Below are positions 38,266 to 53,917 of a stretch of 64,000 bases of DNA, piece after piece. A program made the position numbers and the translations under genes. This stretch comes from Hyphomicrobium sp. GTDB taxonomy: Bacteria > Pseudomonadota > Alphaproteobacteria > Rhizobiales > Hyphomicrobiaceae. Below the pieces are notes generated by a model that saw only the letters and a list, made by a program, of their open reading frames with translations, did not search any database and was not told where the DNA came from. Location of the stretch: contig PERL01000015.1 in assembly GCA_002928735.1 (NCBI GenBank), positions 1 to 64,000 on the forward strand, written 5' to 3'. Each line of letters starts with the position of its first letter. The first letter of the stretch is position 1.

Positions 38266-38267
38266 TT

Positions 38268-38378
38268 CCGCCTTCCGACACGCACATTGTTGGCCAACAC
38301 TCGGCAAGCCGGTGTTGGGCACGTTTTGGCCAACACTCGGCAAGCCGGTGTTGGGCTGGGCGCGCCGGCCGGAAGGCG
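38268..38378. repeat. Hairpin array with inverted ends, two units
   Basis: Two copies of a 25-base bulged hairpin lie at 38294-38318 and 38330-38354 (36-base period). The arms are CCAACAC and GTGTTGG, with an inner CGGC-AA-GCCG stem and one bulged T. The pair is framed by CCGCCTTCCG (38268-38277) and CGGAAGGCGC (38370-38379), inverted with one mismatch. The array lies between the convergent hslO and XRE-regulator genes. A four-unit array with the same ends occurs at 62756-62939. Confidence 0.85.
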
Positions 38379-38388
38379 CGGTGCCGCC

Positions 38389-39177
38389 TCACTCCTCGCG
38401 TTCGCGGGCGTAGGAGATGATGGAGAGGAAGCGGATGGGAAGCTTGATCAGTTCTTCGGGGCCGTGGGGTGCGTCGGCGTCGAAGAACAGGCTGTCGCCG
38501 GGAAGCATGGTGTAGAGCTTGTCGCCGTGGCGGTACACGACCTCGCCTTCGAGCATGTAGAGAAATTCCAGCCCTGAGTGCTGGAAGAGCGGGAAGACGT
38601 CGGACTTCTCGGTGAGCGTGATCATGTAGGGCTCGACGACGAGGCCGGAGGCGTTGCCGCCGGAGAAACCCAAAAGCTGATACTGGTGTCCGGCGCGGGT
38701 GCCGCGGCGTTCGATGACGAGGCCCTGTCCGGCGCGAACGAAGACGGCGTCGCGCTTCTCCTCGAAGCGGCGGAAGAGGGCGGTGACGGGGACGCCGAGC
38801 GCGCGTGAGAGACGCTGAAGCGTCGTCAGCGAGGCAGAGGTGACGCCGTTCTCGATTTTGGAGAGCATGCCGAGCGAGAGGCCCGTGGCGCGGGCGAGAT
38901 CGGACACAGTGATGCCGAGCTTCTTGCGGAAGGCGCGGACTTCGCGGCCGATGGCGACTTCAAGGACATTGTCGCGGGCGCCGGAGAGTGCGTGGGGGTC
39001 TTGGCTGTCCAGGGCGACGGGAAGGTCGGGGTCTTCGCCGTCGTCGCCTTCTTGCAGATGTCCAATTGTTTCGAGGTCGGTATCAACCGGCTGCGGGCTT
39101 TGGCGTGTGCGCGGAGAGGGTGGGGCGAGTGCATCATCCCGGTTGAGTTTACGAACCGTCTCCGAAACTTTTTTCAT
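38389..39177 (-). CDS. XRE-cupin transcriptional regulator of the mgd operon
   Basis: This is a DNA-binding regulator of about 262 residues. An N-terminal extension of some 70 acidic and polar residues precedes an XRE-type helix-turn-helix (residues about 76-131: EVRAFRKKLGITVSDLARAT, then SLGMLSKIENG). A cupin domain near 190-255 (LEFLYMLEGEVVYRHGD, LPGDSLFFDADAPHG) should bind a small effector. Proteins of this layout often control amine or amino-acid catabolism. I place the start at ATG 39177, which overlaps the mgdD stop as ATGA with a GGAAAG upstream, so it is translationally coupled to the N-methylglutamate dehydrogenase genes. It is a good candidate for sensing an NMG pathway intermediate. 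Confidence 0.88.
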   Translation of the reverse strand: MKKVSETVRKLNRDDALAPPSPRTRQSPQPVDTDLETIGHLQEGDDGEDPDLPVALDSQDPHALSGARDNVLEVAIGREVRAFRKKLGITVSDLARATGLSLGMLSKIENGVTSASLTTLQRLSRALGVPVTALFRRFEEKRDAVFVRAGQGLVIERRGTRAGHQYQLLGFSGGNASGLVVEPYMITLTEKSDVFPLFQHSGLEFLYMLEGEVVYRHGDKLYTMLPGDSLFFDADAPHGPEELIKLPIRFLSIISYAREREE

Positions 39178-39869
39178 CCGCTTTCCAGATCTCTCAAAAT
39201 CGACCGGCATGCGAGGGCGTTGCCAAATTCTTGGGCAGCATCAATTAAGCAGTCAAAGAAATACAGGGCCGACGCGCTATCGGCAAGAATATGGAACGCG
39301 GGCGTGCTGCCGATGTCCGCCCGGGTCACTATGGCCGAGATCTTGGCGACCGAGGTCTGGGCGATCGTGAGGTCTGGAAACTTGTTCAGGCGGAAGTCAA
39401 TGCCGCATATTTTTGCGAACATTTCCGGTGACTTAGCGCCTGTCACGACGAACCAAGCCTGGCTGTCCCGGCGCAGCATCGGGTAGGTGCGTTCGGCATC
39501 ATCGAGGCGCCAATCGTCGTGGAGCTTTTGCAGCTTTCCGTCATCGCCGCAGAGCGGCGAAAGGAGAATCACCTCGCTGGCTGCGAGGACGAGGCAGAGG
39601 CCGCCGTCGGGCTGGCGGAAGGCGCGGTTGGCGGTTCCCTCCAGAACGATGCCGCGTTTTTTCATGGCGGGGATGGTCTCGCGGCCTTTGAAGCCGAGGC
39701 GGGGCAGGGGCGAGAGGTCGGTTATCGCGAGATGGCGGGCCGCATCGATGCTGCCGAGGCCGTCCGAGATGGCGGCGTCGCCTGCCGGGGTCGCGGTCCA
39801 TTTTGCGCCGGTCTTGGTCAGGGCGGAACGGAGCGGCGTGCGGCGCAGGTGTTGTTCGGGCGTGGTCAT
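39174..39869 (-). CDS. mgdD: N-methylglutamate dehydrogenase subunit D (SoxG-like gamma)
   Basis: This is the small gamma-type subunit of a heterotetrameric sarcosine-oxidase-family enzyme, 231 residues from ATG 39869, two bases after the mgdC stop. It shows the SoxG pattern: an N-terminal RRTPLRSAL segment, AITDLSPLPRLGFKG, DEAW-like QAWFVVTGAKSPEMFAKICGIDF and a C-terminal HILADSASALYFFDCLIDAAQEFG. SoxG-type subunits resemble the folate-binding GcvT fold. Assignment to N-methylglutamate rather than sarcosine rests on the neighbouring mgsABC-gmaS genes. The end overlaps the regulator start. Confidence 0.83.
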   Translation of the reverse strand: MTTPEQHLRRTPLRSALTKTGAKWTATPAGDAAISDGLGSIDAARHLAITDLSPLPRLGFKGRETIPAMKKRGIVLEGTANRAFRQPDGGLCLVLAASEVILLSPLCGDDGKLQKLHDDWRLDDAERTYPMLRRDSQAWFVVTGAKSPEMFAKICGIDFRLNKFPDLTIAQTSVAKISAIVTRADIGSTPAFHILADSASALYFFDCLIDAAQEFGNALACRSILRDLESG

Positions 39870-39871
39870 CT

Positions 39872-42781
39872 TCAGATTTCCTGGCGCGCGTTGTCGGGAT
39901 CGTAGAAGGGCGTGGGGACGACTTCTGCGGAGACCATCGTGCCGCCGTCGACGCGGATTTCGAAGCGGTGGCCGGTCTCGGTCATGTCGAGCGGCAGGTA
40001 GGCGAGGCCGACGACTTTGCCCAGTGTCGGCGATTTGACCACCGACGTGATGCGGCCGACGATGGCGCCGTTGCGGATGATGAGGTGGCAATCTTTGGGC
40101 GTCGGTGCGGCGCTATCTGTGACCGTGAAGCCGACGAGCTTGCGCGTGATGCCTTTGGCGGCCTGCATGTCGATGGAGCGCTTGCCGACGTAGAAGGGTT
40201 TCTTCTTGGCGAGTGCCCACTCCATGCCGGCTTCGATGGGGTTGGTGAGGCCGTCGGTATCCTGGCCGACAATGATGTGGCCCTTTTCCAGACGCAGGAT
40301 GCGCTGGGCTTCGACGCCAAAGGGTTTGAGGCCGTGCGGCTTGCCGGCGGTCATGAGGATATCCCACAGCGCTTCGCCGAAGCTCGCGGGGCAATGGATT
40401 TCATAGCCTGCTTCTCCGACGAAGCCGACGCGCAAGACGCGGACGGGGATGCCAGCGAGCGTGCCCGTGCGCACGCCCATGTAGGGGAAGGCGTCTTTGG
40501 AGAAATCGATGTCGCTTGAGAGGGATTGCACGATGTCGCGCGCTTTGGGACCGGCGAGGTTCACCGCGGAATAGGCGGCCGTCACGTTGGCGACGTCGAC
40601 GTCCGTCTTCCATTGCACGTTGAACCACGTCATCGCGCGATAGACCTGGTCGACGGCGCTTGTTGTCGCCGTGACGTAGTAGTGGTTGGGCGCGAGGCGG
40701 CAGGCGACGCCATCGTCGATGACGACGCCGGCGATGTCGGTCATGAGCGTGTAGCGGGCACGGCCGACGGGCTGCTTTTCATACGCCCAGGTGTACATCC
40801 GGTCGATGAAAGCGGCCGCATCCGGGCCGCGAATGTCGAGGCCGCCGAGTGTCGATACGTCGATCAGGCCGGCATTGTTGCGGACGGCGCGGACTTCATC
40901 TTCGATGGCGCGGGCGGCGTTGTCCTTGGCGCCATAGTAGGCGGGGCGGAGCCACAGGCCGGCGGTCATGAACTGCGCGCCCAGTTCTTCGTGGCGGCGG
41001 TGCATGGAGGTGAGGCGTGTTGGTTCGAAGGCGCGGCCGGCCATGTGCGCGAACTTCTCCGGCACGAGCGGCGGGCGGAACGTTGTGGTGCCGATGACTT
41101 CCGGCGGTTTGCCGGTGACGGCGCTGACGACGCGGATGGTATTGAGGTTGGCGTGGCGGCCCTGGCTCGGGCCGAGGCCTGCGGTGGAGTAGCGTTTGAC
41201 GAGTTGGATGTCGTCGTAGCCGTCCTTGACTGAGTTGATGATGTCCTTCACCGACAGGTCTTCGTCGAAGTCGATGAATTCCTTGCCCTTGGCGCTTTTG
41301 AAGATCGGATAGGGGTGCGTGATCGACGCGGCGCCGGGATCGGTGGCGTCTGGTTGTGATCCGGCGGGGCTGCCGGCGGCGAGGCGGGCGGCGATGGCGC
41401 CGGTTTCCTTTGCGTGTGTTGAAACGCGATCCGGCGACCAGAGTCCGGCGGCGCTGCCGGCGAGCGAAACGCCTTCGGGTGCGTTCACCGCGCGGTGCAT
41501 TTGAATGGCGGGATCGAAGACGACTTTCGCGCCGGCGTGGCTGGCGAGATTGAGGGCCGGCGAGCAGCCGACCGAGATCAGCACGCAGTCGCAGGTGATC
41601 CAGTCGGTGACGGACGAGGTTTTGCCCTGGGCGGTGATGGAGGCGATGCCGACGCTTTCGACGCGCAGATATCCCTTGGCATCGACGGGCGTGGCGTTGG
41701 TGACGATGCGAATGCCGCGAGCGCGGGCCGCTTCGACGGCGGGGCCTGTGGTGGTGCCGAGATCGACGATGGCGGCGACTTCGCTGCCCGCATCGAGGAG
41801 ATCGAGGGCTGTTTCGTAGCCGAACGTATTGGACGTCGCGATGACGGCGCGGTTGCCCGGGCGGACGCCGTAAAGGCGCATCAATCGCTGGGCGGCGGTG
41901 GCGAAGAGAATGCCGGGGCGGTCATTGTTGCGGAAGACGATGGGCTGATCGAAGCTGCCGGCGGCGACGATGGTCTGGCGCGTGCGGATCTTCAAGAGGC
42001 GGTTGCCGGAGATCGCTGCCGCCCAGCCGTCGGTGAAAAGACCGGAGACGACGGTGCTGGTTAGGATGGTGAGATTTTTGATGCCGCGCGCGCGTGTGAT
42101 CAGGTCGCGGCGGAGCGTGTCGGCGGCGTCGCGGCTGTCGCCCACGCGGCCGTAAAGGAGTGAGCCGCCCAGTTCCGAATTTTCTTCGATGAGCAGCGTT
42201 TCGGCGCCGCCTTCGGCAGCCGCAATGGCGGCCTCAAGTCCGGCCTGTCCGCCGCCGACGACGAGCACGTCGGTGAAGAGATAGGCCTTATCGTAGTATT
42301 TGTGTTCGGCGCGCGGATCCAGAGTGCCGAGGCCGGCCATGATGCGGATTGGGCGTTCAAAGTATTTCCAGACGCCGGCGGGGCGGAAGAACGTCTTGTA
42401 GTAGAAGCCGACGGGCAAGAAGCGGCCGAAATAGTCCATGATCGAGAAGGCGTCGCGTTCGAGCGAGCCGAGGCGATTGATGGACACAACGGCGAGGCCG
42501 GGTGTGACCGCGTGAAGATCGGCGCGGACGTTTGGTTCGTCGGCGACCTGCACGAGCGTGTTCGCGTCGAGGCCGTTCATGGTGAGTGCGCCGCGCGGGC
42601 GGTGATATTTGAACGAGCGGGAGAGCAGCACCTGGCCGGCGCCATAGAGGGCGGAGGCGATGGTGTCGCCTTGATAGCCGTTGAACAGGCGGCCGTCGAA
42701 GGTGAACGACAGCGGCTTTGTGCGGTCGATCAGCAGGCCAAAGCCGGGTTTGTCAATGCGGGCGGGGGAGGACGTGCTCAT
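39872..42781 (-). CDS. mgdC: N-methylglutamate dehydrogenase large subunit (SoxA-like alpha)
   Basis: This is the 969-residue alpha-type subunit. The N-terminal segment (about 14-100) is a ferredoxin-like domain without cluster cysteines, as in SoxA. A dinucleotide-binding domain follows with GGGQAG at 176-181 and ATSNTFGYETALDLL near 315. The C-terminal 400 residues are a GcvT/aminomethyltransferase domain (YTWAYEKQPVGRARYTLMTD; VGFVGEAGYEIHCPASFGE) that should hold tetrahydrofolate and capture the one-carbon unit as methylene-THF. The ATG overlaps the mgdB stop by four bases. Sarcosine oxidase alpha is the alternative; context favours Mgd. Confidence 0.88.
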   Translation of the reverse strand: MSTSSPARIDKPGFGLLIDRTKPLSFTFDGRLFNGYQGDTIASALYGAGQVLLSRSFKYHRPRGALTMNGLDANTLVQVADEPNVRADLHAVTPGLAVVSINRLGSLERDAFSIMDYFGRFLPVGFYYKTFFRPAGVWKYFERPIRIMAGLGTLDPRAEHKYYDKAYLFTDVLVVGGGQAGLEAAIAAAEGGAETLLIEENSELGGSLLYGRVGDSRDAADTLRRDLITRARGIKNLTILTSTVVSGLFTDGWAAAISGNRLLKIRTRQTIVAAGSFDQPIVFRNNDRPGILFATAAQRLMRLYGVRPGNRAVIATSNTFGYETALDLLDAGSEVAAIVDLGTTTGPAVEAARARGIRIVTNATPVDAKGYLRVESVGIASITAQGKTSSVTDWITCDCVLISVGCSPALNLASHAGAKVVFDPAIQMHRAVNAPEGVSLAGSAAGLWSPDRVSTHAKETGAIAARLAAGSPAGSQPDATDPGAASITHPYPIFKSAKGKEFIDFDEDLSVKDIINSVKDGYDDIQLVKRYSTAGLGPSQGRHANLNTIRVVSAVTGKPPEVIGTTTFRPPLVPEKFAHMAGRAFEPTRLTSMHRRHEELGAQFMTAGLWLRPAYYGAKDNAARAIEDEVRAVRNNAGLIDVSTLGGLDIRGPDAAAFIDRMYTWAYEKQPVGRARYTLMTDIAGVVIDDGVACRLAPNHYYVTATTSAVDQVYRAMTWFNVQWKTDVDVANVTAAYSAVNLAGPKARDIVQSLSSDIDFSKDAFPYMGVRTGTLAGIPVRVLRVGFVGEAGYEIHCPASFGEALWDILMTAGKPHGLKPFGVEAQRILRLEKGHIIVGQDTDGLTNPIEAGMEWALAKKKPFYVGKRSIDMQAAKGITRKLVGFTVTDSAAPTPKDCHLIIRNGAIVGRITSVVKSPTLGKVVGLAYLPLDMTETGHRFEIRVDGGTMVSAEVVPTPFYDPDNARQEI

Positions 42782-43122
42782 GCCGACGTTGCTCCCGTCT
42801 CCGTGCCGCCGGTGGCGGGCTTGGCGGCCGGTTCGGCTTCGCCGGACGCGTTGGCTTGCTGACGGGCGAGGAAAGCGTCGTACGTCATGGTTTCGAGGAT
42901 CTCATCGGTGATCGTGTTGCGGCGGGCGATGAACCAGTAGTTGGTGGGGGCGTGTAGCCACCACTCGGTTATCTCGCCGGCGGTGTTGTCTTCCAGGAAG
43001 AGATATTCGGTCCATTGCGCATCCGTGGCGGTGGCGGGATCGGGCATAGCCTTCATCTCGCCGCCCCAGACGAATTCGGAGATGTTGCGCGGGCCGTTGA
43101 GCGGGCAGTTCAGGATTTTCAT
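42778..43122 (-). CDS. mgdB: N-methylglutamate dehydrogenase subunit B (SoxD-like delta)
   Basis: This 114-residue delta-type subunit is expected to bind one zinc. The N-terminus MKILNCPLNGPRNISEFVWGGE carries the conserved cysteine and RNxxEF motif of SoxD proteins; EWWLHAPTNYWFIARRNTITDEI includes the zinc-ligand histidine region and R-N-T motif. The C-terminus is an Ala/Pro-rich tail of 25 residues. It lies 11 bases after mgdA and overlaps mgdC. Confidence 0.87.
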   Translation of the reverse strand: MKILNCPLNGPRNISEFVWGGEMKAMPDPATATDAQWTEYLFLEDNTAGEITEWWLHAPTNYWFIARRNTITDEILETMTYDAFLARQQANASGEAEPAAKPATGGTETGATSA

Positions 43123-43133
43123 TTTGCCGCTCC

Positions 43134-44375
43134 CTAGTGGCCGACCGATGCCGCGCCTTTTTCACCGACGAGATCGAAGGTGTTGAAGCGCGAGAGGGCG
43201 AAGGGTTTCAAGAGATCGGGCTGGCGGCCGGTGGCGACGCATTCGGCCATGCGCTTGCCGCAGACGGGGGTGGCCTTGAAGCCCCAGGTGCCCCAGCCGG
43301 CGTCGATGTAATAGTTTTCGACGGGCGTGAGGCCCATGACGGGGGAAAAGTCCGGTGTCATGTCGGCCATGCCGGCCCATTGGCGCAGAATGCGGAGTTC
43401 GCCCATGAAGGGAAAGAGCTCCAACATGTGGCCCATCAGGCTTTCCTTGAAGTCGAGGGTGGAGCGGGAGGAGTAGAGCCCGTAGGCATCGGTGGCGCCG
43501 CCCATGACCATTTCACCGCGGGCCGACTGCGAAATGTAGACGTGAAGCGAGCCCGAGACGACGATCTGATCGAGGATGGGCTTGACGGGTTCGGACACGC
43601 AGGCTTGCAGCGGGATCGTCTTGATCGGCAGCTTGAGGCCGGCCATGCGCGCGACATGCGAGGATGATCCTGCGACGGCCTGCATGACCTTGGCGGCGTG
43701 TATGACTCCGCGGTTGGTTTCGACGCCGATGGCGCGGCCGTTTTCGATCAGGATCTTTTTGACTTCGGTCTGCGTGTGGACTTCGACGCCGCGCTTCATC
43801 GCTTCTTTGGCATAACCCCAGGCCACAGCGTCGTGGCGGGCGATGGCGCCGGGCGGGTGGTAGAGCGCGCCGAGCACGGGATAGCGGGCCTCGTCCGTCA
43901 CGTTCATCGTCGGGCAGATGCGCTTGACTTCGGCGGCGTCGATGACTTCGGAGTTGACGCCCATGTGCTTGTTGACTTCCGCGCGCCAGCGGGCGGTGCG
44001 CATGGCGGCATCGGTGTGTGCGAGCGTGAAGTGGCCGCGCTCGGAGTACATGACGTTGATGTCGAGTTCGTTGGAGAGGGTGCGGAAGAGTTCGACCGAC
44101 TCCTTATAGAATGCGACGCCTTCGGGGGTGAGATAATTGGCGCGCACGATCGTCGTGTTGCGGGCGGTATTGCCGCCGGCGAGCCAGCCCTTTTCGAGGA
44201 CGGCGATGTTGGTGATGCCGTGATCCTTGGCGAGGTGATAGGCAGCTGCGAGACCATGGCCGCCAGCGCCGATGATGATCACGTCGTAGGTTTTCTTGAG
44301 GTCCGGCTTCCAACGGAAGTGCGGGTCGTCGGGGTGCTCCCGCGACAAGGCGTATTTCAAGAGTGCGAACGGCAT
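43134..44375 (-). CDS. mgdA: N-methylglutamate dehydrogenase subunit A (SoxB-like beta)
   Basis: This is the FAD-dependent catalytic subunit that oxidises the N-methyl group of N-methylglutamate. From ATG 44375 it has 413 residues; GGAG seven bases upstream supports this start over one 15 codons earlier. The DAO-type dinucleotide motif IIIGAGGHG is near residues 33-41, with GWLAGGNTARNTTIVRANY (FAD/FMN contacts) and a C-terminal MADMTPDFSPVMG and DAGWGTWGFKATP block typical of SoxB. It heads the mgdA-B-C-D-regulator operon and diverges from the transporter operon. Confidence 0.88.
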   Translation of the reverse strand: MPFALLKYALSREHPDDPHFRWKPDLKKTYDVIIIGAGGHGLAAAYHLAKDHGITNIAVLEKGWLAGGNTARNTTIVRANYLTPEGVAFYKESVELFRTLSNELDINVMYSERGHFTLAHTDAAMRTARWRAEVNKHMGVNSEVIDAAEVKRICPTMNVTDEARYPVLGALYHPPGAIARHDAVAWGYAKEAMKRGVEVHTQTEVKKILIENGRAIGVETNRGVIHAAKVMQAVAGSSSHVARMAGLKLPIKTIPLQACVSEPVKPILDQIVVSGSLHVYISQSARGEMVMGGATDAYGLYSSRSTLDFKESLMGHMLELFPFMGELRILRQWAGMADMTPDFSPVMGLTPVENYYIDAGWGTWGFKATPVCGKRMAECVATGRQPDLLKPFALSRFNTFDLVGEKGAASVGH

Positions 44376-44693
44376 TTCAATGCTCCGGCCATGGCCTCCG
44401 GCTTTATAAGCCGGATTCAAGGGCAGCTTTCACCCTGTAACCATGCCCCCGATTGTTCCCAAAGTGCAAGAAATTTTCCGGTTGTTCAAGTCTCGGGTCA
44501 TCTCAACTTTGGTGATTTGCCTGTATTTGTTGCGGTGCACTGCATAATTTCCGCGTTTTCTGTTGCAAATGCAGGCAGTTCGTCTTGACATCTCGCGGCA
44601 CCATGACGCAGACTTTCCGCTCAATAAAAATAGATTGCCTGACAGGCAACATTTTTGCGCCGGACTTAACCGGCCAATCTGGGGGAGGTCGCT
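44376..44693. promoter_or_regulatory. Divergent control region of mgd and transporter operons
   Basis: This 318-base gap separates mgdA (minus) from the small membrane protein genes (plus). It is AT-richer than the flanks and must hold both promoters. It contains the perfect palindrome at 44635-44649 plus half-site-like copies TTGCCTG at 44517-44523 and CAGGCAG at 44572-44578. A TTGACA occurs at 44585-44590 without a convincing partner at 17 bases. No gene was recognised. Confidence 0.6.
44635..44649. promoter_or_regulatory. 15-bp perfect palindrome, candidate operator
   Basis: TTGCCTG-A-CAGGCAA is a perfect inverted repeat with a one-base centre, 45 bases before the TTG start of the first transporter gene. 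Position and symmetry fit a dimeric regulator such as the XRE-cupin protein encoded at the end of the mgd operon. Which protein binds is inference. Confidence 0.55.
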
Positions 44694-44987
44694 TTGCAAC
44701 AGAAAGCTATGGATCCGCGCGTCGAGAAGATGTTCGGACAGGACCGGATGTGGGCGATCCTCGCCCTCGTCGTGGTTTGGGCACTCTACACATTCGTCTT
44801 TTACATGCTGCTGCCGCATCTCAACGACGACGGCGTGCTCGGCGCGCTGCTCATCAGCGGCGGGCTCGTGATGCTTTTCAACGCCGCGGCGATCTGGGCG
44901 ATGATCAAGCATTACAGCGAGGACAAGGCCCACATCTATGGCCTTGATCTCCACTACCTCGATCTCATGAACCAACGCAAAGATTGA
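44694..44987 (+). CDS. Small two-helix membrane protein, transporter operon gene 1
   Basis: This is a 97-residue membrane protein of unknown family. The start appears to be TTG at 44694: GGGGGAGG lies five bases before it, while the next ATG (44709) is 20 bases from that site. Two hydrophobic helices, residues 19-39 (MWAILALVVVWALYTFVFYM) and 49-70 (GALLISGGLVMLFNAAAIWA), are joined by a short polar loop; the charged tail (YSEDKAHIYGLDLHYLDLMN) is likely cytoplasmic. It is the first gene of a tight run ending with an APC permease, so it probably serves that transporter as an accessory subunit. Confidence 0.8.
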   Translation: MQQKAMDPRVEKMFGQDRMWAILALVVVWALYTFVFYMLLPHLNDDGVLGALLISGGLVMLFNAAAIWAMIKHYSEDKAHIYGLDLHYLDLMNQRKD

Positions 44988-44997
44988 GGAGCACACC

Positions 44998-45390
44998 ATG
45001 AGCAACGGTGATTACATCCCGCCGCGCCAATCCGCGCTCGGGCAGTTTTTCGACAGCGTGTTCCTTCTGGCTCTGGTGTTCGCTGCACTGTTTGCGCCGA
45101 TCTACCTCGGCCTGGCCGGCGGCGGCAAAACGGAACTCGCCATCGCCGATAAGACAACCTGGACCGGCCTTGGGCAGAACCCCGTTATGCAAGCGGCCTG
45201 GGAGAAACTTGGCTACACGCCAGAGACTGCGGCGCCGCTCATCGTGTCGCGCTTCGACTATTCGTTCGACCTCATCGCGCTCGGCGTCACCGCGCTTGTC
45301 GTGATCGGATATTTTCTTCTCGTGGTCGCGTTCTCCAAGAGCGAATACCGCGAAGTCATCGCCGAACGCTTCGGCCGCAAGACGGATTGA
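44998..45390 (+). CDS. Small two-helix membrane protein, transporter operon gene 2
   Basis: This 130-residue protein has membrane helices at about residues 20-40 (SVFLLALVFAALFAPIYLGL) and 91-112 (DLIALGVTALVVIGYFLLVV). They are separated by a 50-residue loop that is probably periplasmic (KTTWTGLGQNPVMQAAWEKL). No family was recognised. It follows gene 1 by 10 bases and precedes gene 3 by 10 bases; the operon order suggests a stable part of the permease complex. The loop size would allow contact with substrate or with the permease from outside. Confidence 0.8.
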   Translation: MSNGDYIPPRQSALGQFFDSVFLLALVFAALFAPIYLGLAGGGKTELAIADKTTWTGLGQNPVMQAAWEKLGYTPETAAPLIVSRFDYSFDLIALGVTALVVIGYFLLVVAFSKSEYREVIAERFGRKTD

Positions 45391-45400
45391 GGGGAACGCC

Positions 45401-45604
45401 ATGCCTGATATCAGCACGCTCAATAACTATCAGCTTCTCGAGTACGGCGCCTGGGGCCTCTCGTTTGTGTTTGGTCTCTGGATGCTGTTGGACATGATGA
45501 AGACCAACATCACCTACTCCGAAGACCTTCTCATTTCGTCGCGTGAAGGCGAAATCGAAGACGCTCTCGTGATCGATCCGCCCCATCAGGGAGGTCACCT
45601 GTGA
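45401..45604 (+). CDS. Single-helix membrane protein, transporter operon gene 3
   Basis: This 67-residue protein has one hydrophobic helix at residues 15-33 (YGAWGLSFVFGLWMLLDMM) and an acidic soluble tail (SSREGEIEDALVIDPPHQGG). Such size and topology recall the small helper subunits of ActP-type and TRAP-type transporters, but there is no sequence match that I can name. The stop overlaps the GTG start of the permease (GTGA), so the two are translationally coupled. Confidence 0.78.
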   Translation: MPDISTLNNYQLLEYGAWGLSFVFGLWMLLDMMKTNITYSEDLLISSREGEIEDALVIDPPHQGGHL

Positions 45605-47010
45605 GCCAGACAACAACAATCCACGGCGAGAAAATCTCGCTTTTGCGCGTTCTCGGTCCCGGTCACGTGTGGGCGCTCGGCGTCGGCATCGTGCTCGTCG
45701 GCGAGTACATGGGCTGGAATTTTTCGGTGGGCAAGGGCGGTGCAATCGCGGCGCTGATCGCCTGCTGGGTGGCCGGGCTTCTCTACACCTGCGTGGCCAT
45801 GATCGACTCGGAGGTGACTTCGACGGTGGCGGCCGCGGGCGGTCAGTATGCGCAGGCCAAGCACATCGTCGGGCCGCTGATGGCGTTCAACGTCGGCCTA
45901 TTCCTCGTGTTCGCCTACACCATGTTGGAGGCCGCGAATGCGATTACGCTCGGCTACCTCGTCCAAACCGTGGGAGGGATGGCCGGGATGACGGATGCGG
46001 CGGGCGAGGCCTTGGTGCTGCACGACAAGCCATTCATCGTGCTCACCATCATGTTCCTCGCCTGGCTCAACTATCGCGGCGTCTATGCGACGCTGACGTT
46101 CAACCTCGTCATCACGGCCATCGCCTTCATTGCCATCATCATCCTCTTCTTTGCAGTGAAGCCTTGGACGGGCGAGGTGTTGAAGCATAACGAACTGCTG
46201 ACGGGCCTGCCTTACGACTGGATCGGCGTCATCGCGGCGCTGCACTTCGGTCTCTGGTATTACCTCGGCATCGAAGGGACGTGTCAGGCGGCGGAAGAAG
46301 TGCGGTCGCCGGCGCGGTCTCTGCCGCTCGGCACGATGACCGGCATCATGACGCTGCTGATCGCGGCGACCATGACCTGGTACATTTGCGCCGGTCTCAT
46401 GCCGTGGGAATATCTCGGGCAGGCAGTTACACCGCTGTTCGACGCGGCGCGGTTCATGGATTCCATGCCGCTGATGGTGTTGCTCTTCATCGGCACGATC
46501 TTCTCGACGCTGGCGTCGGCCAACGGCTGCATCAACGACGCGTCGCGGGCGTGGTTCTCCATGGCGCGCGACCGGTATCTGCCGCAGTGGTTCGGGGCGG
46601 TGCATCCCAAGTACCGCACGCCGTACCGGGCGATTGTGTTCCTGGTGCCGGTAGCGGTTCTCTTCGCCTACTACGCGCCGCTCGATCAGGTGATCACGTT
46701 CTCGATCCTGTCGGGTCTTCTCGGATACACGTTCATGACGTTCAACGTGATCATGTTCCGGCGCAAGTGGCCGCTCGGCACGATCCAGCGCGGGTACGTG
46801 CATCCCATGCATCCGCTGCCGGCTCTTGTGCTTCTGGTGCTTTGCGGCGCCACCTATTTCGCGGTGTTCCTGGGATATGGCACACAGCTGATGGCGATGA
46901 TGCTGTTCTTCTTCATCGCGTCGCTGTGGTTCCACTTCCATCGCTATCGCTACGTGCGCCGTGGCGATCAGTTCTCGATGCCCTGGCCGCGTCCGCAAGG
47001 CGACTACTAA
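45601..47010 (+). CDS. APC-family permease, ethanolamine-permease-like
   Basis: This is a 469-residue polytopic permease of the amino acid-polyamine-organocation superfamily with about 12 helices. The first helix region (HVWALGVGIVLVGEYMGWNF) resembles ethanolamine permeases (EAT group), and EGTCQAAEEVRSPARSLPLG is the conserved cytoplasmic loop of that group. The start is GTG at 45601 with GGGAGG eight bases upstream. Context between mgd and mgs genes suggests methylamine, gamma-glutamylmethylamide, N-methylglutamate or a related amine as substrate. The upstream three small membrane proteins are unusual for an APC transporter, which normally acts alone. Confidence 0.88.
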   Translation: MSQTTTIHGEKISLLRVLGPGHVWALGVGIVLVGEYMGWNFSVGKGGAIAALIACWVAGLLYTCVAMIDSEVTSTVAAAGGQYAQAKHIVGPLMAFNVGLFLVFAYTMLEAANAITLGYLVQTVGGMAGMTDAAGEALVLHDKPFIVLTIMFLAWLNYRGVYATLTFNLVITAIAFIAIIILFFAVKPWTGEVLKHNELLTGLPYDWIGVIAALHFGLWYYLGIEGTCQAAEEVRSPARSLPLGTMTGIMTLLIAATMTWYICAGLMPWEYLGQAVTPLFDAARFMDSMPLMVLLFIGTIFSTLASANGCINDASRAWFSMARDRYLPQWFGAVHPKYRTPYRAIVFLVPVAVLFAYYAPLDQVITFSILSGLLGYTFMTFNVIMFRRKWPLGTIQRGYVHPMHPLPALVLLVLCGATYFAVFLGYGTQLMAMMLFFFIASLWFHFHRYRYVRRGDQFSMPWPRPQGDY

Positions 47011-47085
47011 TCCGTGTCACGACATCGGCCGCGGCGACGCAAGACGCGCCGCGGCCAACCCTTCAATCATGCGTAGAAGAGACCC

Positions 47086-47763
47086 ATGACGGCGGCATTT
47101 CTCTTCGGGCTCATCGCCTTTTTGGCGGTGGTAGCCAACATCGCGATCCGCGATCATCGCCGGGCGGTGGCCGCGCGGCGGGCGCTGCTCGACGATTGCC
47201 GCGGCGTGCTCGACGAGGAGCGCTGGACCGCAGGCGCGGACGGGTTTCCGGCGCTCGAAGGCCGCGCGTTCGGGCATCCGGTGACTGTGGCACTTATCCC
47301 GGACACGATGGTTGTGCGGCGGCTGCCACAGCTCTGGCTATCGGTGACGGTGCTCGATGCAATGCCACGGGCGCCGTCGCTCTCGTTGCTGGCGCGGCCG
47401 TCGGGAAATGAGTTTTATGCGGGAACGTATCAGTTGCCCAACCGGGTGGAACCGCCGGCCGGGCTGCCGCTGGATGTTATGATCCGTGGCGACGGGGTCC
47501 GTGCCCATGCTCTCTGCCAACGGCTCTGTGGATTTCTCGCGTCGTTCCTCGCTGAGCCCAGCGTCAAAGAGATCACGCTTACGGCGCGAGGCGTTCGGAT
47601 CGTGCGGCAGGTGGCCGAGGGCCGGCGGGGTGAACATCTTTTGCTGCGGCAGGCCGTGTTCGATTTATCCCAAGTTGAGCGTTCGGTGTTCGTGCAGACG
47701 TTGCGTGATGCGGCGGCGCTGGCGGCACAGCGGACCGCGGCCGTCGAGGAGCGCGCCGCGTGA
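47086..47763 (+). CDS. Unknown protein with N-terminal membrane helix
   Basis: This 225-residue protein has a hydrophobic N-terminus (residues 3-20, AAFLFGLIAFLAVVANIA) that could anchor the rest in the cytoplasm. The soluble part is a mixed alpha/beta domain (VTVALIPDTMVVRRLPQLWL; SLLARPSGNEFY; EITLTARGVRIVRQVAEG) with a C-terminal helix. No family was recognised. It follows the permease by 75 bases and overlaps the next small membrane protein. I infer a role linked to amine uptake or to the NMG enzymes from position only. Confidence 0.7.
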   Translation: MTAAFLFGLIAFLAVVANIAIRDHRRAVAARRALLDDCRGVLDEERWTAGADGFPALEGRAFGHPVTVALIPDTMVVRRLPQLWLSVTVLDAMPRAPSLSLLARPSGNEFYAGTYQLPNRVEPPAGLPLDVMIRGDGVRAHALCQRLCGFLASFLAEPSVKEITLTARGVRIVRQVAEGRRGEHLLLRQAVFDLSQVERSVFVQTLRDAAALAAQRTAAVEERAA

Positions 47764-48035
47764 AGGGTTCTCCGCCTCCGCACCCCTATCTTGTGCTGCT
47801 GCTCGCCATTCTGATGCCGGGCGGGGGGCACGTGCTCGCCGGACAACCACAGCGCGGGTTCGGCTTTGCTCTGTTCACGCTCATTCTAGCGGCGATCAGC
47901 TGGCACACCACGACGCCGGAACACTCCTTCATAGGCCGGGCGGCGCTGGGCTTGTTCGTCTGGGCGATTTCCATTCCGGACGCCTACCGGCTGGCGCGCA
48001 CCCAGTATGAATTCTGGCAGCGCGGACAGGCCTAG
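47760..48035 (+). CDS. Small polytopic membrane protein of unknown function
   Basis: This 91-residue protein starts at GTG 47760, overlapping the previous stop by four bases (GTGA). Three hydrophobic segments can be read: about 9-25 (PYLVLLLAILMPGGGHVLAG), 33-48 and 58-78 (IGRAALGLFVWAISIPDAYR). The glycine-rich PGGGH turn in the first segment and the final DAYRLA recall TM2-like small membrane proteins, but this is not a firm match. It pairs with the preceding gene and is followed by the mgs operon after 106 bases. Confidence 0.7.
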   Translation: MKGSPPPHPYLVLLLAILMPGGGHVLAGQPQRGFGFALFTLILAAISWHTTTPEHSFIGRAALGLFVWAISIPDAYRLARTQYEFWQRGQA

Positions 48036-48141
48036 GGCCGTTTGGATCTCTACTCCCAGGAAAAAAGTATTCTTGGTAGTTGAGGTTTGAAGGGGAAGTT
48101 GATAGCTTTCCATCATAGACGCTGACAGGGAGGCGCGCCCG

Positions 48142-49038
48142 ATGTGTGGGATCGTAGGATTATTCATCAAGGACAAAGCCTTGGAGCCGCGGCTCGGAGA
48201 GTTGACGGCACAAATGCTGGCAACGATGTGCGAGCGCGGGCCGGACTCGGCCGGGTTCGCGGTTTACGGGGCGCCTGAAGATGGCAAGGCGAAGCTGACC
48301 GTGCAGTCAGCCGATGCGGACCATGATTTCGCCGGTCTGGAGGCAGCGCTCTCGAAAACGCTCGGCGTGCCGGTTGAGTTTGAACGCAAGTCGACGCACG
48401 CGGTGTTGACGGTGCCGGCGGACAAGGCCGAGGCAGCGCGCGCGGCGATCAAGGCCGGTCACCCCGGCGTGCGCATCATGAGTGCGGGCGAGACGATCGA
48501 AATCTACAAGGAAGTGGGCTGGCCGACGGACGTGTCGGAACAGTTTCATCTCAAAGAGATGTCGGGCTCGCATGCCATCGGGCACACGCGCATGGCAACG
48601 GAGAGCGCAGTGACGACGATGGGCGCGCATCCGTTTTCGACGGGGTCCGATCAGTGTCTCGTGCACAATGGCTCGCTGTCGAACCACAACAGCCTGAAAC
48701 GCAAGCTGAAGCATGACGGAATGACGTTCGAGACGGAGAACGACAGCGAAGTAGCCGCTGCCTATCTCACGTGGCGCATGAATCAGGGCATGAACCTTGG
48801 GCAGGCGCTGGAGAAGAGCCTTGATGATCTCGACGGCTTCTTCACGTTCGTCGTCGGCACCAAGAACGGCTTCGGCGTGATCCGCGATCCAATCGCCTGC
48901 AAGCCGGCGGTGATGGCGGAGACGGATCAGTATGTGGCGTTCGGTTCGGAATACCGGGCGCTTGCCGGACTGCCCGGCATCGACAAGGCGAAGATCTGGG
49001 AGCCCGAGCCGGCGACCGTTTATTTCTGGGAGCGGTGA
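48142..49038 (+). CDS. mgsA: N-methylglutamate synthase subunit A (glutamine amidotransferase)
   Basis: This class II glutamine amidotransferase domain protein, 298 residues, begins MCGIVGLF so that Cys2 becomes the nucleophile after methionine removal. It matches GlxB of rhizobia. The NTN-hydrolase marks CERGPDSAGFAVYG, GHTRMATES and LVHNGSLSNHN are intact. In the NMG pathway it should hydrolyse gamma-glutamylmethylamide and pass methylamine on to the synthase site. GGGAGG lies ten bases upstream. mgsB follows after three bases. Confidence 0.92.
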   Translation: MCGIVGLFIKDKALEPRLGELTAQMLATMCERGPDSAGFAVYGAPEDGKAKLTVQSADADHDFAGLEAALSKTLGVPVEFERKSTHAVLTVPADKAEAARAAIKAGHPGVRIMSAGETIEIYKEVGWPTDVSEQFHLKEMSGSHAIGHTRMATESAVTTMGAHPFSTGSDQCLVHNGSLSNHNSLKRKLKHDGMTFETENDSEVAAAYLTWRMNQGMNLGQALEKSLDDLDGFFTFVVGTKNGFGVIRDPIACKPAVMAETDQYVAFGSEYRALAGLPGIDKAKIWEPEPATVYFWER

Positions 49039-49041
49039 AGC

Positions 49042-49728
49042 ATGCGCACGATCGATTTGGCTGTCACACCGTTGCGGGAGCTCAATTCCGAGCTTCACCG
49101 GCAGTCGGATGGGACCAACGAAGCCGAGTGGGAAATTCTCAATCCGCGCGGGCAGCATGCAGTGGCGGTGGGCGTGGATGCGCCGATCAAGGTCGCCGTG
49201 CGCGGACCCGTCGGATACTACGGCGGCGGCATGAACAAGAAGGCCACGATCACGATCCACGGATCGGCGGGGCCGGGTGTTGCCGAGAACATGATGTCGG
49301 GCAGCGTCGTCGTGAAGGGCGACGCCAGCCAGTATGCTGGCGCGACCGGACGCGGGGGATTGCTCGTCATCGAAGGGAACGCGGCCTCGCGTTGCGGGAT
49401 CTCGATGAAGGGGATCGACATCGTGGTGCGCGGGAATATCGGGCACATGTCGGCCTTCATGGCGCAGAGCGGGCATCTGGTCGTGCTCGGCGATGCCGGC
49501 GATGCGCTGGGCGATTCCATCTACGAAGCGAAGCTGTTCGTGCGGGGGAGCGTGAAGAGCCTCGGCGCGGATTGCATCGAGAAGGAAATGCGGCCTGAGC
49601 ATCACACGCAGCTGGCGACGTTGCTCGACAAGGCTGGCATCAAGGACGTGAAGACGAGTGAGTTCAAGCGCTACGGTTCGGCGCGCAAACTCTATAACTT
49701 CAACATCGATAATGCGGACGCATACTGA
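49042..49728 (+). CDS. mgsB: N-methylglutamate synthase subunit B (GXGXG domain)
   Basis: This 228-residue protein equals the C-terminal beta-helix (GXGXG) domain of glutamate synthase, here as a separate subunit like GlxC. Repeated turns of the type GPVGYYGGGMNKKATITIHG, GSVVVKGDASQYAG, LLVIEGNAASRCGI and HLVVLGDAGDALGD form the helix. It is structural and bridges MgsA to MgsC. The last base of its stop is the first base of the mgsC start (TGATG). Confidence 0.92.
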   Translation: MRTIDLAVTPLRELNSELHRQSDGTNEAEWEILNPRGQHAVAVGVDAPIKVAVRGPVGYYGGGMNKKATITIHGSAGPGVAENMMSGSVVVKGDASQYAGATGRGGLLVIEGNAASRCGISMKGIDIVVRGNIGHMSAFMAQSGHLVVLGDAGDALGDSIYEAKLFVRGSVKSLGADCIEKEMRPEHHTQLATLLDKAGIKDVKTSEFKRYGSARKLYNFNIDNADAY

Positions 49729-51062
49729 TGACCTATCACAACCCGCCGACCACGCCGCGTAAGTCAGCCACGCTCGATGACTACACGATGTCGGAAATCC
49801 GCCGTGCCGCTGCGACGGGGATTTACGATATTCGCGGTGGCGGGGCGAAGCGGAAGGTTCCGCATTTCGACGACCTGCTTTTCCTCGGCGCATCGATGTC
49901 GCGTTATCCGCTGGAAGGCTATCGCGAGAAGTGCGGAACAAGCGTGGTGCTCGGCACGCGATTTGCCAAAAAGCCGATCGAACTGAAGACGCCGATCACG
50001 ATCGCTGGCATGAGCTTCGGGTCGCTGTCGGCGCAGGCGAAAGAAGCGCTAGGTCGCGGGGCGACTATTGCCGGCACGTCGACGACGACGGGCGACGGCG
50101 GCATGACGCCGGAAGAGCGCGGGCAGTCGAAGACGCTCGTTTATCAGTATCTGCCGTCGCGCTACGGCATGAATCCCGACGATCTGCGCAAGGCGGACTG
50201 CATCGAAGTCGTCGTCGGCCAGGGTGCGAAGCCCGGCGGCGGGGGCATGCTGCTTGGTCAGAAGATTTCCGATCGCGTGGCTGAGATGCGCACGCTGCCG
50301 AAGGGTATCGATCAGCGTTCGGCGTGCCGGCATCCGGACTGGACGGGGCCTGACGATCTGGAAATCAAGATCCTTGAGTTGCGCGAGATCACGGACTGGG
50401 AGAAGCCGATCTACATCAAGATCGGCGGCGCGCGGCCTTACTACGACGTGGCGCTTTCGGTAAAGGCGGGCGCGGACGTGATCGTGCTCGACGGCATGCA
50501 GGGCGGCACGGCTGCGACGCAGGAAGTGTTTATCGAGCATGTCGGGCAGCCGACGCTGGCGTGCATTCGTCCGGCGGTGCAGGCGCTGCAGGATCTGGGC
50601 ATGCATCGTAAGGTGCAGCTGATCGTGTCGGGCGGCATTCGTAACGGTGCCGATGTCGCGAAGGCGTTGGCGTTGGGTGCGGACGCGGTGGCCATTGGTT
50701 CGGCGGCGCTGGTGGCGCTGGGCGACAACGATCCGGCGCTGGAAGAGGAATACAACAAGCTCGGCACGACGGCTGGCGCCTACGACGATTGGCACGAGGG
50801 GCGTTGCCCGGCCGGGATTACGACGCAGGATCCGGAATTGGCGATGCGTCTGGATCCCGTTCGCGCGGGACGGCGTCTGGCGAATTATCTGAAGGTCATG
50901 ACGCTGGAAGTTCAGACCATCGCGCGCGCGTGCGGTCATAACCACGTGCACAACCTCGAACCTGAGGATCTGTGCGCACTGACCATCGAAGCGGCTGCCA
51001 TGGCGCGCGTGCCGCTGGCCGGAACGAACTGGATTCCTGGATTTGGAGGGGGCGGTTTCTAA
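49728..51062 (+). CDS. mgsC: N-methylglutamate synthase subunit C (FMN glutamate-synthase-like)
   Basis: This FMN-binding catalytic subunit, 444 residues, corresponds to the central glutamate synthase domain and to GlxD. Visible marks are ITIAGMSFGSLSAQAKEALG (substrate and FMN site), GQGAKPGGGGMLLGQKIS, VLDGMQGGTAATQEVF, SGGIRNGADVAKALALGADA (phosphate-binding loop) and three C-terminal cysteine sites (RCPAGITTQDPEL, ACGHNHVHNL, EDLCAL). It should form N-methylglutamate from methylamine supplied by MgsA. The stop codon lies inside the loop of the following terminator. Confidence 0.93.
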   Translation: MTYHNPPTTPRKSATLDDYTMSEIRRAAATGIYDIRGGGAKRKVPHFDDLLFLGASMSRYPLEGYREKCGTSVVLGTRFAKKPIELKTPITIAGMSFGSLSAQAKEALGRGATIAGTSTTTGDGGMTPEERGQSKTLVYQYLPSRYGMNPDDLRKADCIEVVVGQGAKPGGGGMLLGQKISDRVAEMRTLPKGIDQRSACRHPDWTGPDDLEIKILELREITDWEKPIYIKIGGARPYYDVALSVKAGADVIVLDGMQGGTAATQEVFIEHVGQPTLACIRPAVQALQDLGMHRKVQLIVSGGIRNGADVAKALALGADAVAIGSAALVALGDNDPALEEEYNKLGTTAGAYDDWHEGRCPAGITTQDPELAMRLDPVRAGRRLANYLKVMTLEVQTIARACGHNHVHNLEPEDLCALTIEAAAMARVPLAGTNWIPGFGGGGF

Positions 51063-51078
51063 CCGCCCTTTCTTTTTG
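51050..51078 (+). terminator. Intrinsic terminator containing the mgsC stop
   Basis: GGGCGGTT (51050-51057) and AACCGCCC (51061-51068) form a perfect 8-bp stem with loop TCT and are followed by TTTCTTTTTG. The left arm is the last coding sequence of mgsC and the stop codon (TAA) straddles loop and right arm, so a terminating ribosome would cover the stem. It separates mgsABC from gmaS. Confidence 0.82.
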
Positions 51079-51125
51079 CCTCACACAATCAAAAAAATAC
51101 GCAATCCTACCCGTCGACCGCAGAA

Positions 51126-52448
51126 GTGAAGGAAACGTCCATGACACAAGACCTCTCATCCTTGGCGAAAGACAAGGGCATTCGCTACTTCATGATTTCC
51201 TTCACCGATCTGTTCGGTATGCAGCGCGCCAAACTCGTTCCGGCGCAAGCGATTGCCGAGATGGAGCGCGATGGGGCAGGCTTTGCCGGATTTGCGACTT
51301 GGCTCGATATGACGCCGGCGCATCCGGATATGTTTGCCATGCCGGATGCGTCCGCCGTAATCCAGCTGCCGTGGAAGAAGGAAGTGGCGTGGGTGGCGGC
51401 TGACTGCGTGATGGACGATCAGCACGTGGCTCAAGCTCCGCGGGTCGTCTTGAAAAAGCTGCAGAAGCGGGCCGCCGACAAGGGCCTCTATAAGCGGACC
51501 GGCGTGGAGTGCGAGTACTTCCTCATCAATGCCGACGGGACGGGGATTTCGGACGGGCGGGATGTCGCGTCGAAGCCCTGTTACGATCAGCAGGCGCTGA
51601 TGCGCCGCTACGACGTGATTTCCGAGATCTGCGACTACATGCTGGAACTTGGCTGGGGCGCCTACCAGAACGACCACGAGGACGCGAACGGCCAGTTCGA
51701 GATGAACTGGAATTTCGATGACGCGCTCATCACGGCGGACCGGCATTCGTTCTTCAAGTTCATGACCAAGTCGATCGCGGAGAAGCATGGGCTGCGCGCG
51801 ACGTTCATGCCGAAGCCGTTCATGAATCTGACGGGTAACGGCTGCCACGTGCATTTGTCGGTCTGGGACAAGAACGGCACGACGAACATGTTCCTCGATA
51901 AGACGGACGAGATGGGGCTGTCGTCGCAGGGCTATAACTTCCTCGGCGGGATCATGAAGCATGCCGAGGGCATGGCCGCTATCACCAACCCGACGGTGAA
52001 CTCATACAAGCGCATCAATGCGCCGCGCACGATCTCTGGCGCGACGTGGTCGCCGAACACGGTCACGTGGACAGGCAACAACCGCACGCACATGGTGCGC
52101 GTACCCGGCAAGGGGCGATTCGAACTTCGTCTGCCGGATGGCGCGGTGAACCCGTATCTGTTGCAGGCGGTGGTTCTGGCGGCCGGTCTCGACGGCATCG
52201 ACACGAACGCGCATCCAGGGCCGCGCTACGACATCGACATGTACCAGCTGGGTCATACCGTGAAGGATGCACCGCGGCTGCCGCTCAACATGCTCGATGC
52301 GATCCGCGGCTTCGACAAGGATACGGGGCTCAAGGCCGCGCTCGGCGAGGAATTCTCGGCGGCGTATATCAAGATGAAGCAGCAGGAATGGAACCACTAT
52401 GCCGCGCATCTGACGGACTGGGAGCGGGAGCAGACGCTCGACGTGTGA
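51126..52448 (+). CDS. gmaS: Gamma-glutamylmethylamide synthetase
   Basis: This ATP-dependent ligase of the glutamine synthetase superfamily should join methylamine to glutamate, the first step of the NMG pathway. Its 440 residues match GmaS rather than GlnA (about 470). Active-site motifs are present: GVECEYFLI, QNDHEDANGQFEMNW, MPKPFMNLTGNGCHVHLS, NSYKRINAPRTISGATWSPN and NRTHMVRVPGKGRFELR. The family is often annotated as type III glutamate-ammonia ligase. It lies 63 bases downstream of mgsC behind a terminator, so an own promoter or read-through is expected. GAAGGAAAC precedes the start. Confidence 0.92.
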   Translation: MKETSMTQDLSSLAKDKGIRYFMISFTDLFGMQRAKLVPAQAIAEMERDGAGFAGFATWLDMTPAHPDMFAMPDASAVIQLPWKKEVAWVAADCVMDDQHVAQAPRVVLKKLQKRAADKGLYKRTGVECEYFLINADGTGISDGRDVASKPCYDQQALMRRYDVISEICDYMLELGWGAYQNDHEDANGQFEMNWNFDDALITADRHSFFKFMTKSIAEKHGLRATFMPKPFMNLTGNGCHVHLSVWDKNGTTNMFLDKTDEMGLSSQGYNFLGGIMKHAEGMAAITNPTVNSYKRINAPRTISGATWSPNTVTWTGNNRTHMVRVPGKGRFELRLPDGAVNPYLLQAVVLAAGLDGIDTNAHPGPRYDIDMYQLGHTVKDAPRLPLNMLDAIRGFDKDTGLKAALGEEFSAAYIKMKQQEWNHYAAHLTDWEREQTLDV

Positions 52449-52476
52449 GGCGGGTTAGAAGGGTGGAATGCGGGCG

Positions 52477-52508
52477 GCCCAGCAGCGATGCTGGGCTGTT
52501 TGCGTTTG
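52477..52508 (+). terminator. Intrinsic terminator after gmaS
   Basis: GCCCAGCA and TGCTGGGC enclose a GCGA tetraloop (52477-52496) and are followed by TGTTTGCGTTTG. It lies about 28 bases after the gmaS stop. Confidence 0.78.
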
Positions 52509-52662
52509 GGACCCGGCGCAAACGTGGCGGCCTGTTTCACGAGTTTTTATAGTATACCGTGTGGGAGATCGCGGTCCGCCAGACCAACCGTTCGAAGCGT
52601 TTTGTTGAGAAGGTCTGCCAGATCGGCTTCGTCATCCCCCTTATCCGTGGAGCGCGGACGCT

Positions 52663-53913: not shown

Positions 53914-53917
53914 CCTC

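Follow-up and report, generated by a model that had tools for sequence, protein, structure and literature searches.

A window of 64,000 nucleotides from Hyphomicrobium sp. (assembly GCA_002928735.1, contig PERL01000015.1, positions 1 to 64,000 of the forward strand) was analysed around a cassette of six co-directional genes, S1-S2-S3-PERM-P225-P91, which occupies positions 44694-48035 and is followed by mgsABC-gmaS of the N-methylglutamate (NMG) pathway. The tie of this six-gene cassette to methylamine use is well supported. The locus is read here, with a probability of roughly 0.55, as a six-component methylamine (methylammonium) transport module, that is, a heteromeric importer of the APC type, of which we infer the complex, the substrate and the direction of uptake. 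The genes of the cassette and their neighbours are the following.

44694-44987, + strand: S1, 97 residues, TTG start, two likely helices, orphan family
44998-45390, + strand: S2, 130 residues, orphan family; model helices 13-36 and 92-125 with a small ectodomain between them
45401-45604, + strand: S3, 67 residues, one likely helix, orphan family
45601-47010, + strand: PERM, 469 residues, GTG start, APC-family permease by Pfam AA_permease_2
47086-47763, + strand: P225, 225 residues, N-terminal helix and soluble domain, predicted TtfA-like fold
47760-48035, + strand: P91, small membrane protein of 91 residues with the motif PGxGHVxxGxPxRG
48142-49038, + strand: mgsA (N-methylglutamate synthase, amidotransferase-like subunit), by family match and synteny
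49042-49728, + strand: mgsB, by family match and synteny
49728-51062, + strand: mgsC, by family match and synteny
51126-52448, + strand: gmaS (type III glutamine synthetase family), TIGR03105 at 673.6 bits
43134-44420, - strand: mgdA-type gene (soxB family), transcribed away from the cassette
42778-43122, - strand: mgdB-type gene (soxD family), by family match
39872-42781, - strand: mgdC-type gene (soxA family), by family match

The gene at 48142-49038 is presumed to be mgsA after the gene names of the NMG pathway. S1 and S2 are separated by 10 bases, as are S2 and S3, and 4-base overlaps join S3 to PERM and P225 to P91; 106 bases lie between the end of P91 and the start of mgsA. The TTG start of S1 is preceded by GGGGGAGG. 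The lengths, strands and spacings that a first-pass annotation had given for S1, S2, S3 and the permease were reproduced exactly from the coordinates, and the setting it had described was found as well, with divergent soxB/D/A-family (mgd-type) genes on the minus strand and mgsABC-gmaS downstream. Its proposal that the first four genes form one unit agrees with a conserved operon but falls short of its extent, since the conserved set comprises six genes, P225 and P91 included.

All genes of the cassette are conserved well beyond the genus, so that the arrangement is no chance one. A search for S2 among 297 genomes of the order gave 45 matches, one of which (G211, E-value 7.5e-4) was rejected because no cassette was present at its locus, leaving 44. 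Stretches mostly of 19 kb were examined at 40 of the 46 S2 places in the order; the matches in G069, G105, G209 and G280 lie outside these 40, and G000 is the window itself. Of the 40 stretches, 37 hold all six genes in the order of the window; this count takes L035 and L036 as complete, although each also has a further APC permease, a weak match, on the opposite strand (35 if these are excluded). The other three are L062 and L065, both cut off by the end of a contig, and L068, where S2 of genome G031 stands alone. When the named genomes of GTDB were scanned, 303 relatives of S2 were obtained, of which 80 were retained and those of lower identity left out. All six genes were in order at 74 of these 80 loci, counting L079 and L136 as complete (72 otherwise, and 71 by a stricter rule). 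Five of the six incomplete named loci are contig ends (L077, L078, L084, L093, L137), and at the sixth, L146, P91 was not found; PERM was scored as present at L099, where it is spread over two frames.

The complete cassette was also present at 9 of 9 plasmid loci examined and at 6 of 7 loci from class and phylum surveys, the seventh being a contig end. The order, named, plasmid and class/phylum sets share species, so their counts are not independent. S2 was rare in the wider samples, with matches in 6 of 289 class genomes and 14 of 398 phylum genomes, both counts including the window's own genome and a weak match in G302 (E 3e-4). Carriers of the cassette are found among Hyphomicrobium, Labrys, Methylobacterium, Aminobacter, Sinorhizobium, Paracoccus and relatives of Roseovarius, and also among plasmids, whose copies suggest horizontal spread. 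In G836, a genome of another class with 45% GC at the locus, the whole cassette lies beside mgd- and gmaS-type genes. No relative of PERM was found in viral contigs.

Homologues of PERM, at 66-100% identity, were identified in 43 of the 297 genomes, with none weaker above the 1e-70 limit and at most five candidates scored per genome. All 43 carry S2, including those in which the NMG genes are distant, so that the permease has a constant genomic partner on the SLC7/SLC3-like principle. Wide occurrence of S2 without the permease, which the first-pass annotation had named as evidence against a joint role, was not found among the examined loci. The single S2 on an intact contig without an adjacent permease at these loci lies downstream of a mau cluster, with S1 and a permease upstream of the cluster.

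Within the order, the cassette is nearly confined to genomes with MgsC. Using a threshold of E below 1e-150, MgsC was detected in 98 of the 297 genomes, in 43 of the 44 with S2 versus 55 of the 253 without it (Fisher p 3e-23, kinship not corrected); the S2 genome without MgsC, G004, has its S2 at a contig end. Counted by genus, all 11 genera with PERM are among the 49 with MgsC, out of 122 in total (p 2e-5, kinship not fully corrected). Under a loose rule, at least one NMG gene lies in the stretch at 44 of the 80 named loci, with mgsA, mgsB and mgsC together at 36.

The cassette is also linked to mau genes. It stands right after a mau cluster on the same strand both at L095 (Hyphomicrobium sulfonivorans S1) and at L092 (Hyphomicrobium sp. 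D-2), and the L050 stretch of G124 has the layout of L095. Here mauA was identified by Pfam, and the other mau genes are presumably those of the usual gene order. mauA exceeded its cut-off in 21 of the 297 genomes, five of which hold S2. A tandem second PERM was observed in the mau-linked cassettes at L050, L092 and L095 (two Hyphomicrobium species). Copies on Aminobacter plasmids, in Pseudohalocynthiibacter and in Paracoccus sp. MA have neither pathway within the stretch shown. The tie to methylamine metabolism proposed at first pass was borne out by the linkage with NMG and mau genes. As described in parts of PMC8292978 and PMC5023228, methylamine is the common substrate of the NMG and mau routes; since the cassette stands beside the genes of both, methylamine is the likeliest shared compound.

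PERM is a member of the APC amino acid permeases (Pfam AA_permease_2, 96.7 bits, cut-off 27). A Pfam scan to E 1 returned AA_permease_2 and AA_permease only, with no match to Amt/Mep (PF00909). Against the ethanolamine permease equivalog TIGR00908, PERM scores 172 bits, far below the cut-off of 381.75, while another permease in the same genome passes it with 571 bits. The earlier description of PERM as ethanolamine-permease-like thus stands as a distant similarity and fails as a family assignment. At nine loci of ethanolamine-type permeases, seven of them over the TIGR00908 cut-off, none of the five partners S1, S2, S3, P225 and P91 was found within 1.5 kb. These permeases share with PERM the APC membership, a similar signature in transmembrane helix 1 (TM1) and a TM6 glutamate.

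The nearest solved relative of PERM by sequence is GkApcT (PDB 5oqt, E 1.5e-23). In the alignment, Glu115 of GkApcT corresponds to Ala105 of PERM and Asp237 to Glu225, and the PERM stretch aligned with the TM5 stretch around Lys191 contains no lysine. According to PMC5803215, Glu115 of GkApcT is the proton-coupling residue and Lys191 is not itself the coupling site. Three glutamates are conserved over 118 PERM rows, E35 in 115, E110 in 116 and E225 in 118, the rows including one possibly unrelated APC permease with Gly at 35 and Ile at 110. E35 lies in the broken region of TM1, where ethanolamine permeases carry Asp or His, and an acid there would suit an amine that lacks a carboxylate. Judged from the alignment, the acidic positions E35, E110 and E225 are probably near the expected pocket.

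The window copies of S1, S2, S3, P225 and P91 reached no family cut-off in Pfam or NCBIfam, in agreement with the first-pass annotation, which could name no family for the three small proteins; for S3 and P91 the family scans covered the window copies. Among the members of the other families, no Pfam family recurred, the commonest appearing in 6 of 34 S1 members (best E 1.8e-4), in at most 2 of 44 S2 members (best single E 2.5e-4) and in at most 1 of 46 P225 members. DUF4212 and DUF485, small subunits of SSS symporters, are two-helix proteins encoded beside a transporter gene and resemble S1 in these two respects; no profile similarity to S1 was found. As candidates for S1, DUF4212 was rejected with 14.2 bits in Pfam against a cut-off of 30 (E 0.061) and an hhalign probability of 1.3 against a 9-row profile, and DUF485 (YjcH-like) with an hhalign probability of 0.5 against a 6-row profile. 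A better Pfam hint for S1, DUF1761 (E 0.0016), is also under cut-off, as is the best hint for P91, DUF6677 (E 0.015).

S2 was modelled as two helices with a small two-helix ectodomain, at a predicted local distance difference test score (pLDDT) of 81.3. A fold search in the PDB gave nothing useful for S2 (best Z 3.2, Foldseek E 8.7), and its profile had no match among PDB sequences. The five helices claimed earlier for the small proteins are consistent with the two of the S2 model and with the charge patterns of S1 (two) and S3 (one). Charge counts suggest that both ends of S1 and S2 are inside, as is the C-terminus of S3, whose conserved tail reads YSEDLLxSSREGEIE. At L162, L163 and L164, S2 of one genus was matched as two pieces within one open frame, which suggests an insertion in the ectodomain.

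The soluble domain of P225 shares a TtfA-like fold in the predicted model, which was built from 46 sequences and reached a pLDDT of 94.3 and a predicted template modelling score (pTM) of 0.89. The model matched TtfA with Z 12.9 over 156 residues, a root-mean-square deviation (rmsd) of 4.0 and 9% sequence identity. Chains of three ribosome-translocon entries (multipass, SND3, TMCO1) followed at Z 12.3, 10.5 and 9.9, the multipass chain being aligned over 200 residues with an rmsd of 3.6; we take this chain to be CCDC47 or a homologue. The next matches were DR_1245 (Z 7.7), then YbjN and secretion-chaperone-like folds. Basic residues follow the N-terminal helix of P225. TtfA itself, as described in part of PMC6593404, has an N-terminal helix anchor and a cytoplasmic C-terminus and binds MmpL3. 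P225 shares this layout along with the predicted fold; it differs in that MmpL3 is an RND transporter and in the low identity, and a fold common to two proteins, seen here on a model, is no proof of a common role.

Upstream of the cassette lies one further conserved feature.

44635-44649, no strand assigned: palindrome TTGCCTGACAGGCAA, which may serve the cassette as operator or as leader hairpin

The exact form TTGCCT-N3-AGGCAA has one copy in the 3.34-Mb genome, before S1. Of 119 distinct upstream regions of S1, each 150 bases long, 20 contain it exactly and 44 contain it with two mismatches or fewer, against means of 0 and 0.78 in shuffled sequences. In 23 of these regions it has at most one mismatch, and its position relative to the aligned S1 start is then -55 to -74 in 22 and -122 in the remaining one; the palindrome is thus kept across genera at a nearly constant distance, and the mau-linked copies retain TTGCC-N5-GGCAA. 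Among 50 relatives, 12 contain the exact palindrome and 10 a reversed control pattern. Seven of the 12 (G000, G001, G090, G913, G914, G915, G924) have a single copy, between mgdA and S1. Three loci with copies were inspected in the other five genomes (L242, L249, L250), with no cassette gene found, and the cassette genomes G919 and G004 of this set have no exact palindrome. At L085 7651-7665, in a metagenome-assembled genome of Hyphomicrobium, the exact palindrome lies near the 5' end of an Amt frame, with a cassette at the same locus. The palindrome is a candidate DNA operator or RNA hairpin. A sigma-70 promoter scan found none, and no Rfam match was obtained in 38000-54000.

In the module as proposed, PERM, with its APC fold, would carry methylamine across the membrane, and S1, S2 and S3 would lie beside it in the membrane with their conserved cytoplasmic tails. 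P225 would be anchored in the membrane with its domain in the cytoplasm and would assemble or gate PERM, as TtfA does for MmpL3, P91 would be an additional membrane partner, and the module would supply the cytoplasmic GmaS and MgsABC. A physical heteromer and methylamine as its substrate are the likeliest readings of the data. SLC7/SLC3 are heteromeric amino acid transporters in which a permease acts with a membrane partner. The statement made at first pass that APC permeases normally act alone does not hold for these animal pairs, nor for GkApcT; part of PMC5803215 names SLC3 and describes GkApcT as crystallised with MgtS, a single-helix small protein, against TM5. Like SLC7/SLC3, the cassette combines an APC-family permease with a membrane partner, but here the partners are several small bacterial proteins, in which the Pfam and NCBIfam scans recognised no family of extracellular domains. 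MgtS was a protein of the E. coli expression host, whereas PERM has five genomic partners. A transporter gene within an NMG operon is also known from Pseudomonas sp. C5pp, where Amt of gmas-mgsABC-amt is called a methylamine transporter in part of PMC8292978; unlike PERM, it is a single protein of a family unrelated by name.

Several observations weigh against this transport module. Gene linkage by itself is no proof of contact. No NMG gene lies in the stretch at 36 of the 80 named loci, some of which end at a contig end, and 55 of the 98 MgsC genomes have no S2, so the NMG pathway can run without the cassette. At 40 cassette-free mgsC loci, no recurring replacement transporter was found, and an Amt gene lies near the cassette at L163 and L085. 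Methylamine dehydrogenase is periplasmic according to part of PMC5023228, so the need for a mau-linked importer is not obvious, and in the mau-linked permease of G031, positions 35 and 110 are Asp and Ala. On the structural side, the S2 model has a pTM of 0.41, and a Foldseek search of the PDB with P225 returned none at E <= 0.001 (best 3.2e-3, probability 1.00). Amt was also considered as a stand-in transporter and rejected, being near mgsC at 3 of 40 cassette-free versus 0 of 54 cassette loci (p 0.07). At L237, two mgsABC-gmaS copies face each other with an Amt gene between them.

The module might instead handle another compound, such as dimethylamine, ethylamine, ethanolamine, gamma-glutamylmethylamide (GMA) or N-methylglutamate, which is considered rather unlikely. 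The TM1 signature GExxGWN of PERM resembles the one in ethanolamine permeases, which have Asp or His where PERM has Glu; a Pararhizobium copy adjoins another glutamine-synthetase-like gene, and the Sinorhizobium meliloti Ak57 cassette lies between purU and gmaS-mgs, with dmm-type genes on the purU side by reading of the annotation. The linkage to both NMG and mau genes argues against this, as NMG and GMA are not mau intermediates, and so does the separate permease of the same genome that exceeds the ethanolamine cut-off. It is also unlikely, and somewhat more so, that PERM carries methylamine alone while the small proteins form a separate, co-inherited membrane device (a sensor, a stress factor or an anchor for NMG enzymes). 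The partners are indeed more variable than PERM, with mean pairwise identities of 0.44 for S1, 0.54 for S2, 0.62 for S3, 0.32 for P225 and 0.51 for P91 against 0.73 for PERM (set sizes unequal), and the association is a genomic one. In G031, moreover, a second copy is split around mau genes, with S1 and PERM (66% identity) before mauF (L160 9400-11200) and S2 behind mauG (L068 9929-10336); S3, P225 and P91 were not found with it, which also counts against a six-component complex. This separation of roles is hard to square with the presence of S2 in every PERM genome, even where NMG genes are distant, with the S3-PERM overlap, and with a natural in-frame joining in S. meliloti Ak57 (L154 8806-10395), where the S3 stop position is Trp and S3 and PERM form one open frame. 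The joining is weak evidence because the internal PERM start is kept.

A stronger form of the six-component APC transporter, in which incoming methylammonium is exchanged 1:1 for outgoing ammonium and S1-S3, P225 and P91 are obligatory assembly or gating subunits, is regarded as distinctly unlikely. One ammonium is released per methylamine oxidised. Exchange was proposed because PERM has neither the proton-site Glu115 nor the TM5 lysine of GkApcT and retains three acidic residues near the expected pocket; if true, it would bring in carbon and remove excess nitrogen without an ion cost. Least credible, and very unlikely, is a transceptor or sensor in which methylamine binding by PERM would be relayed to the cytoplasm by P225. 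With Z scores of 5.2 to 7.7, P225 also resembles YbjN and folds of the secretion-chaperone kind, and the cassette adjoins catabolic operons. On the other hand, Pfam and NCBIfam scans assigned none of the six genes to a kinase or DNA-binding family, and the position of the conserved palindrome, in front of the cassette, agrees better with a cassette that is under regulation than with one that regulates.

In the literature covered, the route by which methylamine enters the cytoplasmic NMG pathway is poorly assigned in methylotrophs; apart from Amt of Pseudomonas sp. C5pp and the Methyloversatilis homologues that follow, no transporter is named. In Methyloversatilis, according to part of PMC5023235, homologues of an ammonium transporter and of amino-acid permeases, with co-clustered conserved proteins, respond to methylamine; section 11 of that paper names no gene of this cassette. 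The mgs and mgd genes of Paracoccus aminophilus are described in PMC4543880, whose section 13 reports a mauA mutant and does not mention the adjacent permease. In strain JCM 7686 of this species the cassette corresponds to JCM7686_RS21935, RS21940, RS24840, RS21950, RS21955 and RS21960. No paper on this gene set was present among the matches listed in open-licence PMC, although supplementary expression tables may list the genes, and S1-S3, P225 and P91 are hypothetical proteins in annotated plasmid records. The cassette is a direct candidate for methylamine import into the methylotroph cytoplasm. If the six-component transporter is real, it would be a case of a bacterial APC permease that has subunits of its own encoded in the genome, and it would give five protein families their first functional context. 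The TtfA-like fold would then also be associated with another class of transporter, unrelated to the first, which would make a general role of this fold in building multi-pass transporters testable.

Two further features of the region were observed. In the consensus scan, no terminator-like site was found between P91 and mgsA, and the 8 such sites in the region are not far above the 5.7 (standard deviation 2.3) of shuffles; the longest hairpin, terminator-like with 13 pairs, is located at 51045-51073 between mgsC and gmaS. Directly after gmaS lies a cyclopropane fatty acid synthase-like gene (52663-53913), with an NCBIfam score of 533 bits against a cut-off of 600.

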